Of a DNA stretch of 64,000 nt, positions 5,742 through 20,337 are shown piece after piece. Position numbers and translations under genes: made by a program. Source of the DNA: Vibrio hannami. GTDB taxonomy: Bacteria; Pseudomonadota; Gammaproteobacteria; Enterobacterales; Vibrionaceae. Under the pieces are notes generated by a model. That model saw only the letters and a list, made by a program, of their open reading frames with translations, did no database searches and was not told the DNA's origin. The stretch is from assembly GCF_029589055.1 (NCBI RefSeq), contig NZ_JARQZP010000003.1, forward strand, positions 1,612,001 to 1,676,000. The letters run 5' to 3'. The first letter of the stretch is position 1. Each line of letters opens with the position of its first letter.

Positions 5742-6155
5742 ATGATGACTGATGAAGAAAGAATCGAACTACAAAAAAACAATCCATTACACGGTCTTAA
5801 GTTAGAAACCATGATTCAGGAGCTCGTGGACTTCTATGGTTGGGATATTTTAGACACGGCAATGCGTTTTAACTGTTTCCATACGAAGCCGTCAGTAGCA
5901 AGCAGCGTGAAGTATTTGAAGAAAACCGACTGGGCGAGAGAAAAGCTAGAAAATTTTTACCTATACCGCTTTAAGCGTATGCCTCGCGCATCTGCCGAAG
6001 AGTATGAACTACCTCCACGCGCACGTACCTTCCCTCACGGACTGAAACCAAAAGAACCTATGGAATTGACCGTTGACTCAATATTGAAATCACAAGCAAA
6101 GGCTGCCTCTTCCCACAAAGCGCGATCTTCACGTGGTCGCAATTTTCGCAAATAA
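5742..6155 (+). CDS. VF530-family DNA-binding protein (DUF2132)
   Basis: A 137-residue protein. The first 75 residues (NNPLHGLKLETMIQ; FNCFHTKPSV; FLKKTDWAREK-type helix) match the VF530 family, named from Vibrio fischeri, small double-stranded-DNA-binding proteins of unknown cellular role. The C-terminal 50 residues are basic and low in complexity (KAASSHKARSSRGRNFRK), a likely non-specific nucleic-acid-binding tail absent from the shortest members. The gene is monocistronic, with a terminator-like repeat on both sides. Confidence 0.85.
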   Translation: MMTDEERIELQKNNPLHGLKLETMIQELVDFYGWDILDTAMRFNCFHTKPSVASSVKYLKKTDWAREKLENFYLYRFKRMPRASAEEYELPPRARTFPHGLKPKEPMELTVDSILKSQAKAASSHKARSSRGRNFRK

Positions 6156-6213
6156 CAAGAGTTCCCGTTCTGGTCTGTTATTTAAAGCTAAGCCTCTGCA
6201 TTGAAGGGGCTTA
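6155..6213 (+). repeat. Terminator-bearing duplicated segment, copy B (degenerate)
   Basis: Shares GTCTGTTATTTAAAG and AGCCTCTGCATTG with copy A, but the stem has a C-to-A change and the T run is lost (GGGGCTTAATC). It may act as a weak terminator between this gene and the convergent GGDEF gene. Confidence 0.6.
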
Positions 6214-7683
6214 ATCTATCGTCACTTTATCGCAGTACATGATGACGTTTCTACCTGACTCTTTTCCGATATAAAGCTGTTCATCTGCTTTCTTAAGTGC
6301 CTTACTAAGCCCATTATTGGATTGTTCAGAGGTGATTCTTTCCAGCGCTGAAGCTATTGGAGCAACACCAATAGAAACAGTGACAACGTTGTATGGGGGG
6401 TTACTGCTATGAGGAATATCGAGATTCTGTACAGCGGCCTTTATGGCTGCAACTTTCGCCTTTAGCTTGCTTTCATCTTTACCGGACAGTATGAACACGA
6501 ACTCTTCTCCACCTAACCGGCAACCAATTTCATGTGGCTCTAATACACTTATCATACTGTTCGCTACTTCAGTAAGAGCGTTGTCTCCTTCAGTATGACC
6601 ATAAGTGTCATTAAAGCGCTTAAAGTTATCGATATCGCATATCAATACATAGACTTGATCACCTTTAGTCAAGCTCCTTTGAACCAACTTCGCTCCATAT
6701 CTTTGGTATTTATAACGAGAGCCGATACCAGTCAGAGAATCAGTTTCTGTTTGGTTGTGGAGAATACGCAGTTGGTTTTTAATTTTAGTAATCAAGCTTG
6801 AATAGGAGCGAGCTAAATCGCCAATTTCATCTGCGCGCTTTATCTCAGGAATCTGTGATTGATCTATCTTCTCTATATCCTGTTTCATCGAAGCCGCTAG
6901 CTCTTTTAGCGGGCTAACCAGCCAGAATGTGATGATATAGATAAGAAGAAACGACACTATTAACGCAATAATAGCTTCCTTCAATACGTTAGCTAATAGC
7001 TCCCTTTTTATTTCTTGTAACTCAGACGCATCGACAACGGCCCAAAAATGCCCTCCATTTTCGTTCCTCAACTCTATGTGGACAAAAAGTAAATTTGCTT
7101 CTTCATCTAAAAAATAATCCGTGTTTCTCATTACTTCAGGAACTTGAGGAATAGGAAGAGATTGTAGCTGAAGGTTTTCATTGACTACTTCTAAATCTAC
7201 TTTAACTTTATTTATTAAGTGATTAAGCTTTTTTAAATGAACGGTATTGGTTGCTGGAGTTTTTGCTAACAAACTTTCTAATTGATTCAGTTTATCCGCC
7301 AGTTGCTTAGCTTCCTGTGCGGTTACATCCAACCGCCAGCCTTTACTTTTCTCTATCGAGTACCTGACCTCAACTCTGCGATTAGAATAATCACTGGTAC
7401 CGGAAACTTCCGCAAACTTTAGGTTTGGAATCGCTTTAAGGCTATCCAGTGTCGATTGCATAAGCAAATTTGCGTAGTTTCGCCCCGCAACTGAGCCGGA
7501 GAAAAAGGTGTTGTAAGCAGCGATATGGCTTGCAGACATATCAGCAAGATATTCAACTTTTGTCGTCCAATCATTTTGATACCGAGAATAGGACATACCA
7601 AAAATAATGGATAGCACAAGAACCAGATGCGAAATAAACAACATCTGGTTTATCGTTAACCAGCCCAAAAATCGGCTACTCAA
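6211..7683 (-). CDS. Membrane diguanylate cyclase with periplasmic sensor, HAMP and GGDEF
   Basis: A 490-residue protein that should make cyclic-di-GMP from two GTP. TM1 is at about 13-32, a periplasmic region of about 200 residues with no recognised fold follows, TM2 is at about 233-257, HAMP at 258-310, and GGDEF at about 320-485 with an active-site GGEEF. No RxxD inhibitory site is seen before GGEEF. The start is a TTG five bases after the stop of the upstream heme-protein gene, with GAG as a weak Shine-Dalgarno; an internal ATG at residue 14 is the alternative. Tight coupling to the cytochrome-like gene suggests that protein works with the sensor domain. Confidence 0.9.
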   Translation of the reverse strand: MSSRFLGWLTINQMLFISHLVLVLSIIFGMSYSRYQNDWTTKVEYLADMSASHIAAYNTFFSGSVAGRNYANLLMQSTLDSLKAIPNLKFAEVSGTSDYSNRRVEVRYSIEKSKGWRLDVTAQEAKQLADKLNQLESLLAKTPATNTVHLKKLNHLINKVKVDLEVVNENLQLQSLPIPQVPEVMRNTDYFLDEEANLLFVHIELRNENGGHFWAVVDASELQEIKRELLANVLKEAIIALIVSFLLIYIITFWLVSPLKELAASMKQDIEKIDQSQIPEIKRADEIGDLARSYSSLITKIKNQLRILHNQTETDSLTGIGSRYKYQRYGAKLVQRSLTKGDQVYVLICDIDNFKRFNDTYGHTEGDNALTEVANSMISVLEPHEIGCRLGGEEFVFILSGKDESKLKAKVAAIKAAVQNLDIPHSSNPPYNVVTVSIGVAPIASALERITSEQSNNGLSKALKKADEQLYIGKESGRNVIMYCDKVTID

Positions 7684-7688
7684 TACTT

Positions 7689-8222
7689 TTACTCTTTTTT
7701 ATCATCATAAGTGCTCAACACAGGTTCAGCACAGGTTCCGTTGATACAGATGTCTTTGTAGGTAGTGTGGCAACTTTCACAGAAACTAGGTTCTAGAGAA
7801 GGGTGCATAGAAGTAATGTCGTTACCCTTGCGATCATAGCTTCCATACAACGCAAGGCCTCCGATGTGCTCGGTAACCCATATAATCCCCTGGACTTCTG
7901 ATACTGCTACAACAGTAGGACCATCAGAATAGGGACCATGTGTTTTATACTGTTCGAGCTTTTCAGGGTTAACCCTAATTGTCAGCGGTGATCCTTTACC
8001 TTCGTTGATCCACGCATAGGCACGAACAGATTCTTGAATAAATAGAGATGTATCTGGGGGTAAAACCGTATCCGCCGGAAGGTTCATTGACTCTTTAACT
8101 ACAGGCCACTCTTCCCAACCCTCTGGATAACTCGCATCAGACGCAGCAACAGCCTGCCCCGCGAGTGTTAGAAAAGCCATTGCAAACATCAGAACGGCTT
8201 TAAGATATCTAAAAACTTGCAT
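7689..8222 (-). CDS. Exported monoheme cytochrome c-like protein
   Basis: About 177 residues. The signal peptide MQVFRYLKAVLMFAMAFLTL ends near AVAA, so I start at ATG 8222, not the in-frame ATG 8237. One covalent heme motif, CESCH, lies in the C-terminal third. The central part (YPEGWEEWPVVKE, GPTVVAVSE) resembles the cytochrome P460-like fold, but this assignment is tentative. The gene is co-transcribed with, and immediately upstream of, a periplasm-facing GGDEF protein. A heme-based redox or gas sensor partner is the natural inference; a stand-alone electron carrier is the alternative. Confidence 0.75.
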   Translation of the reverse strand: MQVFRYLKAVLMFAMAFLTLAGQAVAASDASYPEGWEEWPVVKESMNLPADTVLPPDTSLFIQESVRAYAWINEGKGSPLTIRVNPEKLEQYKTHGPYSDGPTVVAVSEVQGIIWVTEHIGGLALYGSYDRKGNDITSMHPSLEPSFCESCHTTYKDICINGTCAEPVLSTYDDKKE

Positions 8223-14827: not shown

Positions 14828-15811
14828 TTATTCGCTAAAGTTGGCTTCAATTCTATGGCGCAGGTACTCCTCTGCTGTCATAGGAGCATATTTCCCTCTC
14901 GCCCCTTCGATAACCTGATCTTTGTTAGCCTGACAGAAAAACGCCATGCTATAACGCGCTTTATGGTTACCTGGTTGTTCAGGCATTTTCACTCTATGAA
15001 GCGTAGACTTTAGCTGGTCATCGCTCCACCGCATCAGCATATCACCAATATTACATGTGATAATGCCTCTTTCTGGTGCCACATCTGTCCATTGCTGAAC
15101 GCCCTGAGCATCTTTTCCCGGACACGCTTGTAGTCCACCCTCCCCGTCTCTCTGAAATACCATAGTCAAACAGTCGAAATCCGTATGCGCTCCTGCTCTC
15201 CATATCCCCTCCTGAGGAAGATAGCCCTCATCAAGTGGAAGGTAATGCAGCAATCTGAGTGTAGATTGGTAATGTTTAGATTCCCTGTTATGAGCGCTAG
15301 TAAAAAAGTCCTTTTCCATTCCTAGTTTTTCTGAAAAACAGGAGAGAATGAACATTCCTAACTGCCATGCCTTATACTCCATATTCAGAATATCGGTCTT
15401 AAAATCCTTTAGTAGGGTACGGTCTGGCCATAACGCTTCCATTTTTGGCAGCGTAACTTGATAGGACTCTTTTTGATCAGGAGTACCGGTAGAAGGACGG
15501 ACCTGCCCTTTGTACTCCCAACCCGCATTTTGTCCTTCAAGTAACGATACCGATTGCTTATCAGACTCACTAAGAGCAAAAAACTGTTCAGATTGTTCAA
15601 ACGCTTTGTCGATGGTTTCCAGGGGTATCGAATGATTCTTCAATTGAAAGAACCCCACCTCAGTCGCCGCTTTCCAAAGCGCCTCTGTTATCTCTTCTCT
15701 TCGGCTTTCAGCATCAGACAAATCGATAACCGGAATGGTTCGGCTATTATCGATTTGTCCAACCTTGCCAATGGTTGATTCGAAGTTAAGTTCGTCGAGT
15801 GCGTATGCCAT
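14828..15811 (-). CDS. 2-oxoglutarate/Fe(II)-dependent oxygenase, isopenicillin N synthase family
   Basis: A 327-residue cytoplasmic double-stranded beta-helix oxygenase. The iron triad is His209 and Asp211 (AHTDFD) and His272 (TLHRV); Arg286 and Ser288 (RYSM) form the 2-oxoglutarate carboxylate site. The N-terminal DIOX_N domain includes PVIDLSD. Substrate is unknown. Its leader carries the same conserved RNA element found before the adjacent NMT1-type ABC importer and the amidohydrolase, so a role in oxidising a purine or purine-derived compound is a reasonable inference, perhaps a non-molybdenum route. SD GGAG lies five bases before ATG. Confidence 0.9.
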   Translation of the reverse strand: MAYALDELNFESTIGKVGQIDNSRTIPVIDLSDAESRREEITEALWKAATEVGFFQLKNHSIPLETIDKAFEQSEQFFALSESDKQSVSLLEGQNAGWEYKGQVRPSTGTPDQKESYQVTLPKMEALWPDRTLLKDFKTDILNMEYKAWQLGMFILSCFSEKLGMEKDFFTSAHNRESKHYQSTLRLLHYLPLDEGYLPQEGIWRAGAHTDFDCLTMVFQRDGEGGLQACPGKDAQGVQQWTDVAPERGIITCNIGDMLMRWSDDQLKSTLHRVKMPEQPGNHKARYSMAFFCQANKDQVIEGARGKYAPMTAEEYLRHRIEANFSE

Positions 15812-15840
15812 AAAATCTCCATTTTGAAACTCAAGTTAAT

Positions 15841-15877
15841 GGAGCAATGCCAATCTACGATTTGCCGCTTCTACTCC
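15841..15877 (-). ncRNA. Xanthine (NMT1-motif) riboswitch before the 2OG oxygenase gene
   Basis: On the minus strand the aptamer reads GGAGUAGAAGCG, then the hairpin GCAAAUC-GUA-GAUUGGC, then CAUUGCUCC. GGAG/CUCC closes P1. GAGUAGAAGCG and CAUUGCUC are identical in all three copies in this window and match what I recall of the NMT1-motif xanthine-I aptamer. The expression platform is clear: AAUGGAG (15817-15823, containing the Shine-Dalgarno) is exactly complementary over 7 bases to CUCCAUU at the aptamer's 3' edge (15838-15844). P1 formation would therefore free the ribosome site, implying an ON switch (inference). Confidence 0.85.
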
Positions 15878-15888
15878 TTTTATTATTT

Positions 15889-16644
15889 TTAGCGGCCTAA
15901 ACTCCAGCTAAAAAATGTTTTTTGAATCAGTTTAATGCTGTGGAACAAAACAAGACTGATTACGGATAAAACAAACAAGGAGGCGAATGCCTGAGGAATC
16001 TTAAAGTAAGAGGTAGAGAACTGAATAAAGTATCCAAGCCCTTCTTCCGCAGCTACAAACTCCGCAATTACCGCGCCTATTATTGCAAGAGTAATAGCTA
16101 CCTTAAGTCCACTAAATATGTAAGGAATCGCATAAGGCAACCGAATCTGCCAAATCTCTCGACTCGGTTTAGCACGCAGAGATTGCGAAAGCTCTATCAA
16201 CTCCTTGGGTGTTGCTTGCATCCCGGTAGTAGCAGCAACCACCAGCGGGAAAAATGTGATTAAGAAAGTGATCGCTAACCTCGGAGCATCGCCGGTTCCC
16301 AGAATAACGATTAACAACGGGGCAATCGCGACAACAGGGGTCGACTGAATCACAACCAATAATGGATAGATGGTTTTATTCAAATATTCAGAGCGCACCA
16401 TTAAAATAGCAATTGGAATACTCACAGCTATAGAGATAACAAAGCCCAAGATTGCTATATAGAGCGTTGCCCAGAGGTGTTTTATCCAACGGGCACCATC
16501 AACACCAACAAATGCGTTAAAAACATCTGACGGAGCAGGAAGAATATAAGAGGGAATGGATGCGCCTTTGCAAACTAATTCCCAGAAGGGTATCAGCAAC
16601 AATAACGTTATAGTTGGCAAATGACGCTTAAAAAAATGCTTCAT
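15889..16644 (-). CDS. ABC transporter permease, NitT/TauT family
   Basis: A 251-residue inner-membrane permease of the BPD_transp_1 family with about six TM helices. The EAA-type loop around ELSQSLRAKPSREIWQIRLP contacts the ATPase. It is the last gene of a three-gene operon (binding protein, ATPase, permease) with an NMT1-motif riboswitch at its head. Closest by type to SsuC/TauC/ThiX permeases; the probable substrate is a purine or a purine breakdown product, judged from the riboswitch and neighbours rather than from the permease. Confidence 0.9.
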   Translation of the reverse strand: MKHFFKRHLPTITLLLLIPFWELVCKGASIPSYILPAPSDVFNAFVGVDGARWIKHLWATLYIAILGFVISIAVSIPIAILMVRSEYLNKTIYPLLVVIQSTPVVAIAPLLIVILGTGDAPRLAITFLITFFPLVVAATTGMQATPKELIELSQSLRAKPSREIWQIRLPYAIPYIFSGLKVAITLAIIGAVIAEFVAAEEGLGYFIQFSTSYFKIPQAFASLFVLSVISLVLFHSIKLIQKTFFSWSLGR

Positions 16645-16652
16645 ATTCTCAC

Positions 16653-17474
16653 CTATGCCACTGTTTTTAATCCCGCAGTTGTTTCAGGTTCAGAAGCCAC
16701 TTCTGATAACTGCGGTTGGTAAATATGCTTGCGAATACGGGTCGTGTAATCCGCAAATTTAGGCTCATGGATCGTATCGATATTTCTTGGTCGGGAAAGA
16801 TCAATATCCAGTTCTTCAGCTATGGTTCCCGGCCTTTGGCTCATGATAAGAACCTTATCCGCCAGTAAGACTGCTTCAGATATTGAGTGAGTAATGAAAA
16901 GAACGGTTTTTGGCTTTTCCTGCCAGATACGTTGAAGTTCAAATCCCATTTCTTCACGAGTTAACGCGTCCAGTGCAGAAAATGGTTCATCCATGATCAA
17001 GATGTCCGGATCAAGCAGCAAAGCCCTTGCGATGCCGATACGCTGCTGCATGCCCCCAGAAAGCTCATCTGGCCTTTGGGTCAGAAAATCCTGCAACCCA
17101 ACCATCTTAATCAGCTCTTTTGCTTTCTCTTTATCTTTATTTCCAACGTAGTTGTACTTGTGCTTTAGAGGAAACAACACGTTATCCAGTATACTTAGCC
17201 ACGGCAGTAAGGTGGGCTTTTGAAATACAATCCCTATGTCGTCTCTGGGCTCGGTAATCTGATGACCGAATACAGACACTTCACCTACCGTAGCTGGAAT
17301 CAGTCCCGACAGTAGCCTCAGTAACGTTGATTTGCCGCAGCCGGAAGGGCCAACCACAGCAATGAACTGATTCTTCTCGATACTGAAATTCACGTCGCTC
17401 AGCGCCGGAACTTCAGCGCCTTTGTCGGTAATATAGGTATGCGAAACCCCTTTAAACTCAACAAAACTCGCCAT
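16653..17474 (-). CDS. ABC transporter ATP-binding protein, NitT/TauT family
   Basis: A 273-residue ATPase. Walker A is GPSGCGKST (about 42-50), Q-loop FQKPTLLPW, signature LSGGMQQR (about 139-146), Walker B LIMDEPF with the catalytic Glu, and H-loop ITHSIS. It energises uptake through the permease encoded 8 bases downstream, and overlaps the binding-protein gene by one base at 17474, so all three are translationally coupled. Confidence 0.93.
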   Translation of the reverse strand: MASFVEFKGVSHTYITDKGAEVPALSDVNFSIEKNQFIAVVGPSGCGKSTLLRLLSGLIPATVGEVSVFGHQITEPRDDIGIVFQKPTLLPWLSILDNVLFPLKHKYNYVGNKDKEKAKELIKMVGLQDFLTQRPDELSGGMQQRIGIARALLLDPDILIMDEPFSALDALTREEMGFELQRIWQEKPKTVLFITHSISEAVLLADKVLIMSQRPGTIAEELDIDLSRPRNIDTIHEPKFADYTTRIRKHIYQPQLSEVASEPETTAGLKTVA

Positions 17475-18460
17475 TATTTTGTCTCCGGTAAGAAATCCCT
17501 GTTGAGTGTTGCTTCAGGGTTAAAACTTGCTTCATCTATCCCCTGAGCCAAAGAAGTCCATTTCCAGGTAGAGGCTAAATGTTTCGCGTCGAACTGACCT
17601 ACACTGGTTGATTTACTGATAGGGTTGTATACAAGGTCATAGATGGAGTTGATAGTGTCAGTTGCAACCTTAACATCCACTTCAGGAACCATTTTATTGA
17701 TAGACTCTGCACTTTTAACAGGGTTAGCCCAGGTGTATTCAACCGCCTCTGCATAAGCTTCGATAAAGCGTTTCGCCACTTCCGGACGCTCTTCTAGAAA
17801 CTTATCACTTGCGATAACTGAAGTCGCATATTGCTCAAGACCCGCTTCATGCCAGGGCATGACTTTTAGCTCTTTCCCAGCCTGTTTCGCCTGGCTAATC
17901 AATCGCTCTTTACTGGTTACCCAGGAAATCAATACGTCGGTATTCTCTGTTGCCAACATTGGACCTAGTGCACCCGGATCTGCTTTGATCAGTTTAATTT
18001 CGTCCTCAGAAAATCCACTTTGTTCTAGTACTAATGGAAGATAGAGATTTGAAGAAGTGAAAGGTGATGTTGCTACTCGCTTGCCTTTAATATCTGCAAT
18101 CGAATTAATCTTGCCGTTATCAACAACAAAAAAGGCATGAGGCGCCTGGCTAAAAATAGAGTAAACCGCAGAAACTGGTACACCATCTTTCGCTTTTGCA
18201 ACCATGAGTGCTGAAATATCGGCAATTCCAACATCCGAAATACCAGTAGCCAGTTTTGTGATGGCTTCTGTAGAGCCCCTGCCCTGATTGATAGTGACAT
18301 CAAGGTCGTACTTTTCAAAAATTCCTTTATCAATACCTACGTAAACAGGGGCTTTGTCTCCTCCTGGTAGCCAATCTAGCTGAAACTTAACTTTGTCCGC
18401 AGCTAGCACAGAGAAACTTAACGTTGTTAGTAATACTGTTGAGCTAAGAGTTTTAAACAT
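17474..18460 (-). CDS. NMT1/THI5-type ABC substrate-binding protein
   Basis: A 328-residue periplasmic protein with a clear signal peptide (TVLLTTLSFSVLAAD, cleavage after AxA near residue 21). The NMT1-like domain begins VKFQLDWLPGGDKAPVYVGIDKGIF and includes the hallmark GRGSTEAITKLATGISDVGIAD. NMT1 domains bind pyrimidine- or purine-like and sulfonate ligands. Expression is probably controlled by the riboswitch in its 148-base leader. The NMT1 motif RNA was named for its frequent placement before genes of exactly this family. Confidence 0.92.
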   Translation of the reverse strand: MFKTLSSTVLLTTLSFSVLAADKVKFQLDWLPGGDKAPVYVGIDKGIFEKYDLDVTINQGRGSTEAITKLATGISDVGIADISALMVAKAKDGVPVSAVYSIFSQAPHAFFVVDNGKINSIADIKGKRVATSPFTSSNLYLPLVLEQSGFSEDEIKLIKADPGALGPMLATENTDVLISWVTSKERLISQAKQAGKELKVMPWHEAGLEQYATSVIASDKFLEERPEVAKRFIEAYAEAVEYTWANPVKSAESINKMVPEVDVKVATDTINSIYDLVYNPISKSTSVGQFDAKHLASTWKWTSLAQGIDEASFNPEATLNRDFLPETK

Positions 18461-18468
18461 TATTGATT

Positions 18469-18551
18469 CCTTTCATATCTGTTTAACTAGATGGAAAGGC
18501 GCAGGCTGACATTCGTCCACCCGAGAATGTCATCAAGTTGACTTCCTTTCC
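18469..18551 (-). promoter_or_regulatory. Expression platform of the NMT1 ABC operon riboswitch
   Basis: Three short segments compete: GGAAAGG near the aptamer, CCUUUCC in the middle and GAAAGG at the Shine-Dalgarno. Only one of the two pairings can form at a time, giving a plausible translational switch. Seen in sequence; direction of control is inferred. Confidence 0.6.
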
Positions 18552-18560
18552 GGCTGTAAC

Positions 18561-18608
18561 GAGCAATGTCTCTACCTGCCAATTCTGGCGCGATAATCGC
18601 TTCTACTC
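18561..18608 (-). ncRNA. Xanthine (NMT1-motif) riboswitch before the NMT1 ABC operon
   Basis: The minus strand reads GAGUAGAAGCG, a variable region with GCCA-GAAU-UGGC hairpin, then GACAUUGCUC. Downstream, the leader has mutually exclusive pairings: GGAAAGG (18545-18551) can pair with CCUUUCC (18493-18499), which can otherwise pair with GAAAGG of the Shine-Dalgarno (18469-18474). An additional 7-bp hairpin GACAUUC/GAAUGUC lies between. This looks like an anti-SD/anti-anti-SD platform, more elaborate than those of the other two copies. Confidence 0.8.
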
Positions 18609-18929
18609 TTTGACTGTACTTTCTATTCTTATAGTGATTTGTTGTTGAACAAACTTATTGTTAATCCAAGATTGCAATCCCCGTGCCAGAAAGAAACATT
18701 TTGTTTACAACCCATATATTCCAGATATCTAGCAGCACTCCATGAGTTACCTACCAAAAGTCGACATAGTACCTGTTGTTTCATCTTGGTTCAAAGATGC
18801 ACAAATGTTGTGCTTATGTAACACGCTTGTTCTACATATCTTCTAATGAACATAGAACTATACCTAGATATGACTAGAACGACTATATGGCTCAATTATT
18901 GCTCTTAGAAATAACTACACAATATTAAA

Positions 18930-18966
18930 GAGTAGAAGCGGTTAGGGACTCCCCGGGACATTGCTC
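18930..18966 (+). ncRNA. Xanthine (NMT1-motif) riboswitch before the amidohydrolase gene
   Basis: GAGUAGAAGCG, hairpin GGG-ACUC-CCC, then GACAUUGCUC. P1 can extend to AGAG/CUCU. The 3' aptamer edge UUGCUCU (18961-18967) is complementary over 7 bases (one G-U) to GGAGCAA, which is the Shine-Dalgarno region (18978-18984) of the amidohydrolase gene. P1 and the SD-blocking hairpin share CUC, so ligand-stabilised P1 should expose the SD. Confidence 0.85.
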
Positions 18967-18975
18967 TAATAACGT

Positions 18976-18990
18976 CAGGAGCAACGAATG
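18976..18990 (+). promoter_or_regulatory. Ribosome binding site sequestered by the riboswitch hairpin
   Basis: AGGAGC ends five bases before ATG 18988 and forms the 3' arm of the UUGCUCU/GGAGCAA hairpin. Confidence 0.7.
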
Positions 18991-20337
18991 AGTTATTTGA
19001 TCAAAAATGCCACAGCAGTTCTTTTATCTAATAAGAGCGAATCAGTGGATATCAGAACGTCTAATGAATTTATCAGTGAAATAGGCATCAACCTGGCTCC
19101 TAAGGGCGAAGAGGTGATAGATGCAACTGAATGTGTTATCTATCCGGGGTTTGTAAATACTCACTATCACCTAGCTCAATCAGTTCTCAAAGGAGTGCCT
19201 GAAGGGGTAAACAAAGGATTAGGTGATTGGCTAGCCGCTGTGCCTTATCGCTTCTGGCCCAAAATCCCGCCAAAGTTGATGTACCTATCCGCTAAGTTAG
19301 GTTTATACGAACTACAGAGATCAGGGGCAACGACTTGTGCCGATCACCATTATCTCTACCATGCAAGCACGACACCTGAGCTAGAAGAAGCACTCTGGTT
19401 GGCTGTCGAAGAGATGGGTATGCGCTTTATGTTATGCAGGGGAAGTGCGACAAAAGCAGGAAGCCACAAGGGGATGAAAAGCCTTCACATCACACCCGAA
19501 ACACCGGATATGGTGATGAGCAGAATGGATAAGAGTATGCGACATCATCAAGATTCTTCTATTGGCATGAAGAAAGTCTGCATGGCACCAACCAGCCTGA
19601 TTCACTCCAATGAACCCGAACACCTAAAGGAGTTTGCCGACTATGCAAGAGCGAATAGGCTCAAACTTCACTCTCACCTGCTAGAGGTTGAATTTGATGA
19701 GCAACAAGCGCAGGCTCAGTACGGTGTAAGCGCTGTAGAGTATGCCCAACAATGTGGTTGGCTGGGTGAAGATGTTTGGTTTGCCCATCTGGTAAAAGCC
19801 GATGCAAAATCCAGGTCGATACTTGCTGAAACCAAAACTGGAATAGCGCACTGTCCAACTTCAAATTGCAGGCTAGGCAGTGGTATCGCTTCTGCTCACG
19901 AAATGGACAAGTTGGGCATGAAAGTCACGATAGGAGTTGATGGCTCAGCCTCAGCAGAATCTGGTTCAATGCTACAGGAACTCAACCTTAGCTGGTTACT
20001 TCAAAGAGCACTATATGGTGCAGATTCCGTCGAGCCAGGAAGAATATTAGACTGGGGTTCTAAAAACGGAGCGGATTTGCTGGGGTTCAAGACCGGACAA
20101 ATTAAAGTGGGGTATTTAGCCGACCTAGTTTTGTATCGAGTTGATGAGCCTCGAGTAGCAACCGTTCATACACCGCATTTGGCCCCGCTACTATGCGGTG
20201 AACCAGCAACAGTTGAGTATAGTTTTATTCATGGCAATCCCGTTATCTCAAAACAGAAGAGCACCGTTGTTAATGATCAAAAACTGATCTCCGATTTACG
20301 TCAGGAAATGAACAAATTTCTCTACACCATCACTTAG
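18988..20337 (+). CDS. Purine/pterin-deaminase-family amidohydrolase (8-oxoguanine deaminase-like)
   Basis: A 449-residue metal-dependent TIM-barrel hydrolase of the AtzB/TrzA/8-oxoguanine deaminase group. Metal and catalytic residues: NTHYH early, HSHLLE in the middle (with catalytic Glu), HCPTSNCRLGSG and the late IGVDGSAS with the metal Asp. Known members deaminate guanine, 8-oxoguanine, isoxanthopterin or s-triazines. Riboswitch control by a xanthine/urate-type aptamer favours a purine; 8-oxoguanine deamination would yield urate. Exact substrate is not readable from the sequence. Divergently transcribed from the NMT1 importer. Confidence 0.85.
   Translation: MSYLIKNATAVLLSNKSESVDIRTSNEFISEIGINLAPKGEEVIDATECVIYPGFVNTHYHLAQSVLKGVPEGVNKGLGDWLAAVPYRFWPKIPPKLMYLSAKLGLYELQRSGATTCADHHYLYHASTTPELEEALWLAVEEMGMRFMLCRGSATKAGSHKGMKSLHITPETPDMVMSRMDKSMRHHQDSSIGMKKVCMAPTSLIHSNEPEHLKEFADYARANRLKLHSHLLEVEFDEQQAQAQYGVSAVEYAQQCGWLGEDVWFAHLVKADAKSRSILAETKTGIAHCPTSNCRLGSGIASAHEMDKLGMKVTIGVDGSASAESGSMLQELNLSWLLQRALYGADSVEPGRILDWGSKNGADLLGFKTGQIKVGYLADLVLYRVDEPRVATVHTPHLAPLLCGEPATVEYSFIHGNPVISKQKSTVVNDQKLISDLRQEMNKFLYTIT

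Follow-up and report, generated by a model that had tools for sequence, protein, structure and literature searches.

Three riboswitch aptamers of the xanthine (NMT1) class are embedded in a cluster of five genes in Vibrio hannami that encodes an ATP-binding cassette (ABC) importer, an amidohydrolase of the purine- or pterin-deaminase type and a 2-oxoglutarate- and Fe(II)-dependent (2OG-Fe(II)) oxygenase. The block studied spans positions 14828-20337 of what we call the window, i.e., the whole stretch of 64,000 nucleotides (nt) that was analysed (assembly GCF_029589055.1, contig NZ_JARQZP010000003.1, positions 1,612,001-1,676,000). Sequence searches and genome comparisons leave little doubt that the three RNAs belong to the class described by Rfam family RF03054, and the same near-certainty extends to the view that the cluster is a single, conserved module. 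The explanation that we consider best overall, and to which we give about an even chance, is a two-operon module with three xanthine-class riboswitches, in which the oxygenase copy works as an ON switch and the products feed xanthine dehydrogenase (XDH).

Three aptamers of the xanthine class

The aptamers are located as follows.

15837..15881 (core 15842-15876), minus strand: xanthine (NMT1) aptamer of the oxygenase gene, RF03054 29.4 bits
18556..18613 (core 18561-18608), minus strand: variant xanthine (NMT1) aptamer of the transporter operon, RF03054 23.6 bits
18925..18971 (core 18930-18966), plus strand: xanthine (NMT1) aptamer of the amidohydrolase gene, consensus type, RF03054 48.6 bits

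A preliminary description of this DNA had noted two blocks that are identical in the three leaders, and these are indeed exact in every copy: GAGTAGAAGCG occurs at three sites in the window, 15866-15876 (minus strand), 18598-18608 (minus strand) and 18930-18940 (plus strand), each copy is followed downstream by CATTGCTC, and the conserved J1 block and the 3' block that closes P1 are preserved without change in all three. With one mismatch allowed, the window has 5 matches to GAGTAGAAGCG as compared to 0.77 expected (standard deviation 0.89), a number that no shuffle reached, and the exact two-block pattern is matched three times in the whole genome and its reversed control not at all. Measured from block to block, the copies span 35, 48 and 37 nt, which corrects the 37, 48 and 37 given earlier. 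The intervening hairpin had been regarded as variable, with only the ligand core fixed; its sequence does vary, but it is no mere spacer, since P2a, J2 and P2b lie inside it, and it is here that two of the three copies deviate from the family consensus.

The proposed membership in the NMT1 class was borne out by the Rfam covariance model, for which the gathering score is 36 bits. Only the amidohydrolase copy clears this cut-off (48.6 bits). The oxygenase copy, with an expectation value (E) of 9.7e-5 in a 301-base search, and the transporter copy, with E 0.0053 in a 401-base search, score below it, but they are the second- and third-best matches of the genome (E 4.1e-4 and 0.016), such that the three window copies take its top three places (best E 2.0e-9; next match E 3.55). 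Of 14 control genomes, 12 gave weak matches at E up to 10, all of them below the cut-off, and with an E limit of 0.1 and stricter filtering the control genomes gave zero matches. Some copies of the oxygenase and transporter aptamers at the same place in relatives pass the cut-off, and given this and the shared core, we regard the two low-scoring RNAs as divergent relatives of the class. The class, its gene types and its associations have already been described, and the members that were tested bind xanthine and urate (PMC7373994, cited throughout for the portion available to us).

Conservation and spread of the module

Among 227 Vibrio genomes, RF03054 matches at E up to 0.1 occur in 31, of which 23 have two or more and eight have a single weak match (20.5-23.7 bits). 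The eight were not counted as carriers; the exact two-block core is absent from the seven of them that were examined (L040-L046). An oxygenase match with E no worse than 1e-60 picks out the same 23 genomes. With up to one mismatch permitted in each block, all 69 of the aptamers expected from 23 genomes and three genes (the window and 22 relatives) were found, with identical gene order throughout, and the earlier idea that the three copies make up one conserved module thus stands for 23 of the 227 genomes. An even draw of 394 genomes from the order yielded the exact pattern in six: three from Vibrio, one matching Alginatibacterium and one Gayadomonas by sequence, and one (G043) without gene context.

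Phylogenetic trees, built from 45 rows for the binding protein and from 56 rows for the oxygenase, separate the carriers into group A, with 17 genomes, and group B, with seven (the window, five other Vibrio and Alginatibacterium sediminis); support for group B is 100/100 and 100/99, respectively. Because Alginatibacterium pairs with Vibrio row L063 in both trees, at support values (85/86 and 95/77) that are under the starred level, lateral transfer of the cluster is suggested. Two loci, L091 (Gayadomonas pG7) and L110 (Vibrio sp. qd031), lie on plasmid-labelled records, which fits lateral movement. Other genera, too, have oxygenase and transporter-like genes accompanied by two or three aptamers (L106, L139, L153, L156 and L163), and multi-aptamer clusters are therefore not unique to Vibrio.

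The preliminary description had counted three transcription units in the block, a number that we consider doubtful. The core of the oxygenase aptamer begins 12 nt past the permease stop codon in the window, and because of this proximity the aptamer is probably intercistronic, within the importer operon, which would make two units rather than three. The gap between permease stop codon and aptamer is 12-21 nt in all seven group B genomes and 131-2165 nt in all 17 of group A; at one locus, L064, about 2.2 kb lie between the permease and the oxygenase aptamer (5902-8089). A promoter scan gave no promoter-like match on the minus strand between permease and oxygenase, and matches in the region as a whole were not above chance (5 as compared to 7.3 in shuffles).

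A candidate ON switch ahead of the oxygenase gene

Two short segments of the oxygenase leader are central to the predicted regulation.

15838..15844, minus strand: 3' strand of P1 with its extension (CUCCAUU), the complement of the Shine-Dalgarno region
15817..15823, minus strand: Shine-Dalgarno region of the oxygenase gene, AAUGGAG, the predicted ligand-free partner of CUCCAUU

The Shine-Dalgarno sequence GGAG copies the 5' strand of P1, and both would therefore compete for the P1 3' strand, CUCC(AUU). In the 23 Vibrio oxygenase leaders a C follows CUC and a G precedes GAG, so that P1 is GGAG:CUCC and the Shine-Dalgarno sequence is GGAG. The pairing extends further: in group A, 16 of 17 leaders match CUCCAAU with AUUGGAG, and the window leader, like those of three Vibrio relatives and Alginatibacterium, matches CUCCAUU with AAUGGAG; the extension is mixed and partly unpaired in L075, L080 and L082. 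In the mechanism that we propose, the CUCCAUU:AAUGGAG helix would hide the oxygenase start site in the ligand-free RNA, and ligand binding would close P1 and release the start site in part; the oxygenase would then be made when xanthine or urate accumulates. The importer copy would bring in, and the deaminase (amidohydrolase) copy would make, an oxidised purine, all three switches probably acting at the level of translation, and the module as a whole would serve uptake, deamination and oxidation of purine-type or pterin-type compounds, with its products feeding a separate XDH cluster instead of replacing XDH.

The sign of the switch was assessed by folding each leader freely and then with P1 forced and the junction open, and comparing the opening of the Shine-Dalgarno sequence. 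The folding input was 141 of 184 aptamers, with 24 left out for want of a recognised gene and 19 for a distant start or no usable Shine-Dalgarno sequence; the wide locus set is itself a sample, 80 loci of at least 119 stretches. Four loci (L103, L110, L136 and L155) with identical aptamers were judged duplicates of L069, L075, L078 and L082, and duplicate rows were kept in the raw folding and 3'-strand counts and dropped from the shuffle, arm-swap, background and tree analyses. Shine-Dalgarno opening increased by more than 0.15 in all nine group B and all 17 group A oxygenase rows (26 rows, 24 of them non-redundant), and among the oxygenase rows of other genera it rose past the same threshold in 12 of 32 and fell in two. 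For the window leader, six fold settings gave an opening of 0.01-0.06 without constraint as compared to 0.27-0.52 with the aptamer constrained, in the same direction throughout.

Across 41 leaders, the Shine-Dalgarno sequence pairs with the P1 strand at 0.77, as compared to 0.17 when the linker is shuffled, and for 29 of the 41 the observed P1-strand pairing is reached by at most 5% of the leader's own shuffles. When the arms of 36 unique oxygenase pairs are swapped among leaders, contiguous pairing falls from 5.47 (own arm) to 4.73, and none of 2000 permutations was as high. When 31 leaders, 27 of them distinct, are aligned, pairing holds in 98.1% of the cells, as compared to 31-56.4% in six slid controls; one of the six pairs is doubly changed (18 A-U, 4 U-A, 3 unpaired, 2 gaps) and the other five are invariant, and the four doubly changed cells compare to 1.0 in shuffles, with none of 500 shuffles as high. 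The complementarity between Shine-Dalgarno sequence and P1 3' strand, with compensatory changes among the oxygenase leaders, is a new observation at the level of sequence comparison.

A number of results weigh against the ON prediction. The window leader itself does not reach the 5% level (13% of its shuffles match the observed P1-strand pairing), and when closure of the Shine-Dalgarno sequence is used as the measure, only 19 of the 41 leaders beat their shuffles at 5%. The number of doubly changed pairs is ordinary, with 340 of 500 shuffles as high, the double change falls on one base pair, plus Gayadomonas at a neighbouring pair, and the rows are related. Part of the CUCC complementarity is trivial, because any GGAG Shine-Dalgarno sequence pairs with CUCC; ranked against 347 start regions that belong to other genes at these loci, the Vibrio oxygenase leaders have a median only in the best 11%, with 17 of 23 within 20%, and the 33 oxygenase leaders from elsewhere show no enrichment (median 0.42). 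The arm swap carries no signal for the deaminase (4.61 as compared to 4.46, P 0.24) or the transporter (3.00 and 3.00), and the folds of these two copies in the window give no readable sign. In its constrained minimum-energy fold, the window leader re-pairs the Shine-Dalgarno sequence through a weaker hairpin, GAGUUUC with GAGAUUU, and because this hairpin competes the leader is half open at best. Finally, the reporter test of the class, made with one Hydrogenophaga leader, reads OFF (PMC7373994). Taking both sides together, we put the prediction that the oxygenase copy acts as an ON switch a little short of an even chance. It is confined to this lineage and some marine relatives and stands only moderately above a fair background.

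An ON architecture for the class as a whole was considered and rejected: outside the 23 Vibrio genomes, the median background rank is 0.42 for oxygenase and 0.60 for transporter leaders, and the deaminase leaders stand out weakly at 0.16. At one locus, L098 (Rouxiella silvae), the transporter start region GAGCAAUG, 85 nt past the aptamer, is the exact reverse complement of the invariant strand CAUUGCUC, and may be another case of start-site mimicry.

The transporter and deaminase copies

The predicted fold of the deaminase leader varies with the length of flank included, and in the window's transporter leader the Shine-Dalgarno sequence is predicted to open and the start codon to close, at a cost of 8-13 kcal/mol. 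Group A transporter leaders have a helix over the start codon, CAUAGUU(A) with (U)AACUAUG, that differs from the oxygenase helix; start codon opening increases by over 0.4 in 10 of the 11 that have it, and Shine-Dalgarno opening falls in nine of all 17. Against the 347 background start regions, the Vibrio transporter and deaminase leaders rank at 0.25 each.

The transporter copy is, as judged from aligned sequences, a lineage-specific variant: its 3' strand reads AGAGACAUUGCUC in all seven group B genomes as compared to CGGGACAUUGCUC in all 17 of group A. In the crystal structure of the class from Ideonella, G35 stacks on xanthine, mutations there or at its partner C11 abolish xanthine binding, and G12 and C34 tolerate change (PMC8266621, likewise cited for the portion available to us). 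The simplest alignment places an A at position 35 of the transporter copy, and other registers keep a G near C11. The aligned G35 is kept in the deaminase copy, and in the oxygenase copy too if P2a has two pairs; the group B oxygenase copies can be read as having such a two-pair P2a, with a one-base bulge that keeps the G, and similar two-pair forms are seen in other marine genera. A changed ligand for the group B transporter copy is therefore put forward as possible only, and loss of G35 as a firm claim was dropped, the bulge alignment being ambiguous.

The five genes and xanthine dehydrogenase

The genes of the cluster are listed below.

14828..15811, minus strand: 2OG-Fe(II) oxygenase, 327 amino acids (aa), with DIOX_N and 2OG-FeII_Oxy domains (Pfam)
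15889..16644, minus strand: ABC importer permease, 251 aa
16653..17474, minus strand: ABC importer ATPase, 273 aa
17474..18460, minus strand: ABC importer substrate-binding protein, NMT1/THI5-like, 328 aa
18988..20337, plus strand: amidohydrolase, PRK12393-like, 449 aa

Profile and structure-relative searches agree with the gene types named in the preliminary description, namely an importer with an NMT1 domain, an amidohydrolase of the purine or pterin type and a 2OG-Fe(II) oxygenase. The oxygenase passes the Pfam gathering scores of PF14226 (80.7 vs. 27.3) and PF03171 (69.4 vs. 23), matched no NCBIfam model at E 0.001, and has thymine dioxygenase (5c3p) as its nearest relative in the PDB. The PDB relatives of the amidohydrolase are headed by 2paj (331 bits), which we take to be isoxanthopterin deaminase, followed by the 8-oxoguanine deaminase 7ww2 (229 bits). 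With a match over nearly its full length, the amidohydrolase falls just under the PRK12393 cut-off (NF009059; 532.1 vs. 543 bits) and is a close relative of that family; it is also under the cut-off for 8-oxoguanine deaminase (NF006055; 356 vs. 532 bits). The amidohydrolase match of L064 (1444-2786) consists of two overlapping pieces, a possible frameshift. A second oxygenase paralogue, 28-31% identical, adjoins the cluster in the group B Vibrio loci L067, L069, L075 and L082, and is not present in the 11 kb of the window that was examined for it.

A further purine cluster lies on the same contig, about 1.18 Mb away.

4080-17890 of L087 (G000:C3, about 442,000-456,000): purine cluster distinct from the five-gene module, with xdhABC and guanine deaminase (NCBIfam)

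Here xdhA, xdhB, xdhC and guanine deaminase all score above their NCBIfam cut-offs, and none of the genome's three strong aptamers is found in this cluster. PF02738, the molybdenum-binding domain of XDH type, occurs in 23 of 23 genomes with the five-gene cluster as compared to 105 of 204 others (Fisher p 1.5e-6, from hand-made counts uncorrected for relatedness, the domain being found in other enzymes also). The suggestion made at the outset, of a complete module that lacks molybdenum XDH, thus fails, and because xdhABC is present and PF02738 accompanies the cluster in every one of the 23 genomes, the five-gene module very probably does not replace molybdenum XDH. The xdhABC cluster also encodes a probably PuuD-like membrane protein, which carries a CxxCH motif at its C-terminus, and a putative BMP-type binding protein with permeases and an ATPase; the two of these that were tested had no NCBIfam match.

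Competing explanations

The closest competitor of the ON prediction holds that all three RNAs are ordinary OFF switches, through which bound xanthine or urate reduces translation of importer, deaminase and oxygenase and so keeps oxidised purines in check, and that the CUCC/GGAG complementarity is accidental, a by-product of the conserved core and a standard Shine-Dalgarno sequence, an account that we find quite credible even if somewhat under an even chance. The published reporter of one family member reads OFF (PMC7373994), CUC is invariant in the aptamer, the 347 background start regions also give fairly strong duplexes, and in the window's constrained fold another hairpin pairs the Shine-Dalgarno sequence about half the time or more. 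Accidental complementarity accounts less readily for pairing that reaches beyond GGAG and co-varies, and for opening that rises, and never falls, in 24 of 24 non-redundant Vibrio and Alginatibacterium oxygenase leaders; moreover, among the 14 unique arm pairs of transporter leaders with GGAG, 12 have an A after CUC that prevents the extension, and extended pairing is therefore not automatic. At the other extreme, the ON switch might be one part of a more elaborate scheme, in which a single class is wired differently for each gene, with a xanthine ON switch for an oxygenase that uses up this signal and, ahead of a diverged importer, an aptamer remodelled to sense some other purine or pterin, the whole being carried as a unit, a small RNA logic circuit, between Vibrio and Alginatibacterium; this we regard as decidedly unlikely.

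Other explanations concern what the module senses and handles. Oxidised pterins (isoxanthopterin, pterin-6-carboxylate) or 8-oxoguanine, in place of ordinary guanine or xanthine, may be its substrates, with the aptamer sensing a xanthine-like product, a possibility that seems doubtful on balance but deserves attention: the deaminase is closer to 2paj than to 8-oxoguanine deaminase, and the genome has a separate guanine deaminase above cut-off, but sequence cannot reveal substrates, class members tested bind xanthine and urate, and isoxanthopterin and 8-hydroxyguanine are among the compounds bought without being named as ligands in the available portion of PMC7373994. That the transporter copy no longer senses xanthine, having AGAGAC for CGGGAC at J1/J2, a J1 possibly one base shorter and hence another pocket, is in our judgement unlikely. 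The variant precedes the transporter in seven genomes from two genera, and the binding proteins of these genomes make up a single clade (support 100/100); the mutants G35C, C11G and C11U-G35A lost xanthine binding (PMC8266621). Set against this, other alignments of the bulge bring G34 or G36 opposite C11, substitutions of G12 and C34 were largely tolerated in the same study, and the two outer blocks are unchanged. Least probable by far is the notion that switch and oxygenase form a molybdenum-free replacement for XDH, for which the kinship of the oxygenase to a nucleobase oxidase, thymine dioxygenase, could be cited; xdhA, xdhB and xdhC are present above their cut-offs, and the XDH-type domain is found in 23 of 23 cluster genomes as compared to 105 of 204 others.

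Relation to known systems

The Vibrio cluster shares with the xanthine riboswitch class of Yu and Breaker (2020; PMC7373994) the conserved blocks, the P1/P2 architecture and the proposed control of the ribosome-binding site, as well as its genes, i.e., an isopenicillin-N-synthase-like oxygenase, an NMT1/tauA binding protein and a PRK12393 amidohydrolase; adjacent aptamers in opposing orientation were also reported there, in one species. It differs from what is described in the available portion of that paper in having three aptamers for five genes, an oxygenase aptamer within an operon, a predicted ON platform and a changed J1/J2 in the transporter copy. No ON version is described in that portion or in the available portion of PMC8266621. 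The same authors saw no genes for breakdown of oxidised purines, where activation might be expected, under control of the class, and left the function of the oxygenase open (PMC7373994, same portion). If the prediction is correct, a xanthine-activated copy ahead of this type of oxygenase, kept in Vibrio and some marine relatives, would suggest that the enzyme consumes the signal, and one compact aptamer would give opposite outputs simply through a start signal that mimics one strand of a stem. With the Ideonella crystal structure (PMC8266621) the window copies share the two elements between which xanthine is framed, namely J1 and the 3' strand AUUGCUC. The crystal has the bulge C33-C34-G35 and a three-pair P2a, whereas the window's oxygenase copy reads as two P2a pairs with a one-base bulge, and the simplest alignment of the transporter copy puts an A at the position of G35.

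Among the enzymes, the 8-oxoguanine and isoxanthopterin deaminases (7ww2 and 2paj) are homologous to the window's amidohydrolase over most of its length. Oxygenase-based oxidation of purines has been proposed also for hpxDE of Klebsiella (cited in PMC7373994). The window's enzyme is a 2OG-Fe(II) oxygenase by Pfam, unlike the Klebsiella system, and occurs together with XDH. HpxD and HpxE are of the Rieske type.

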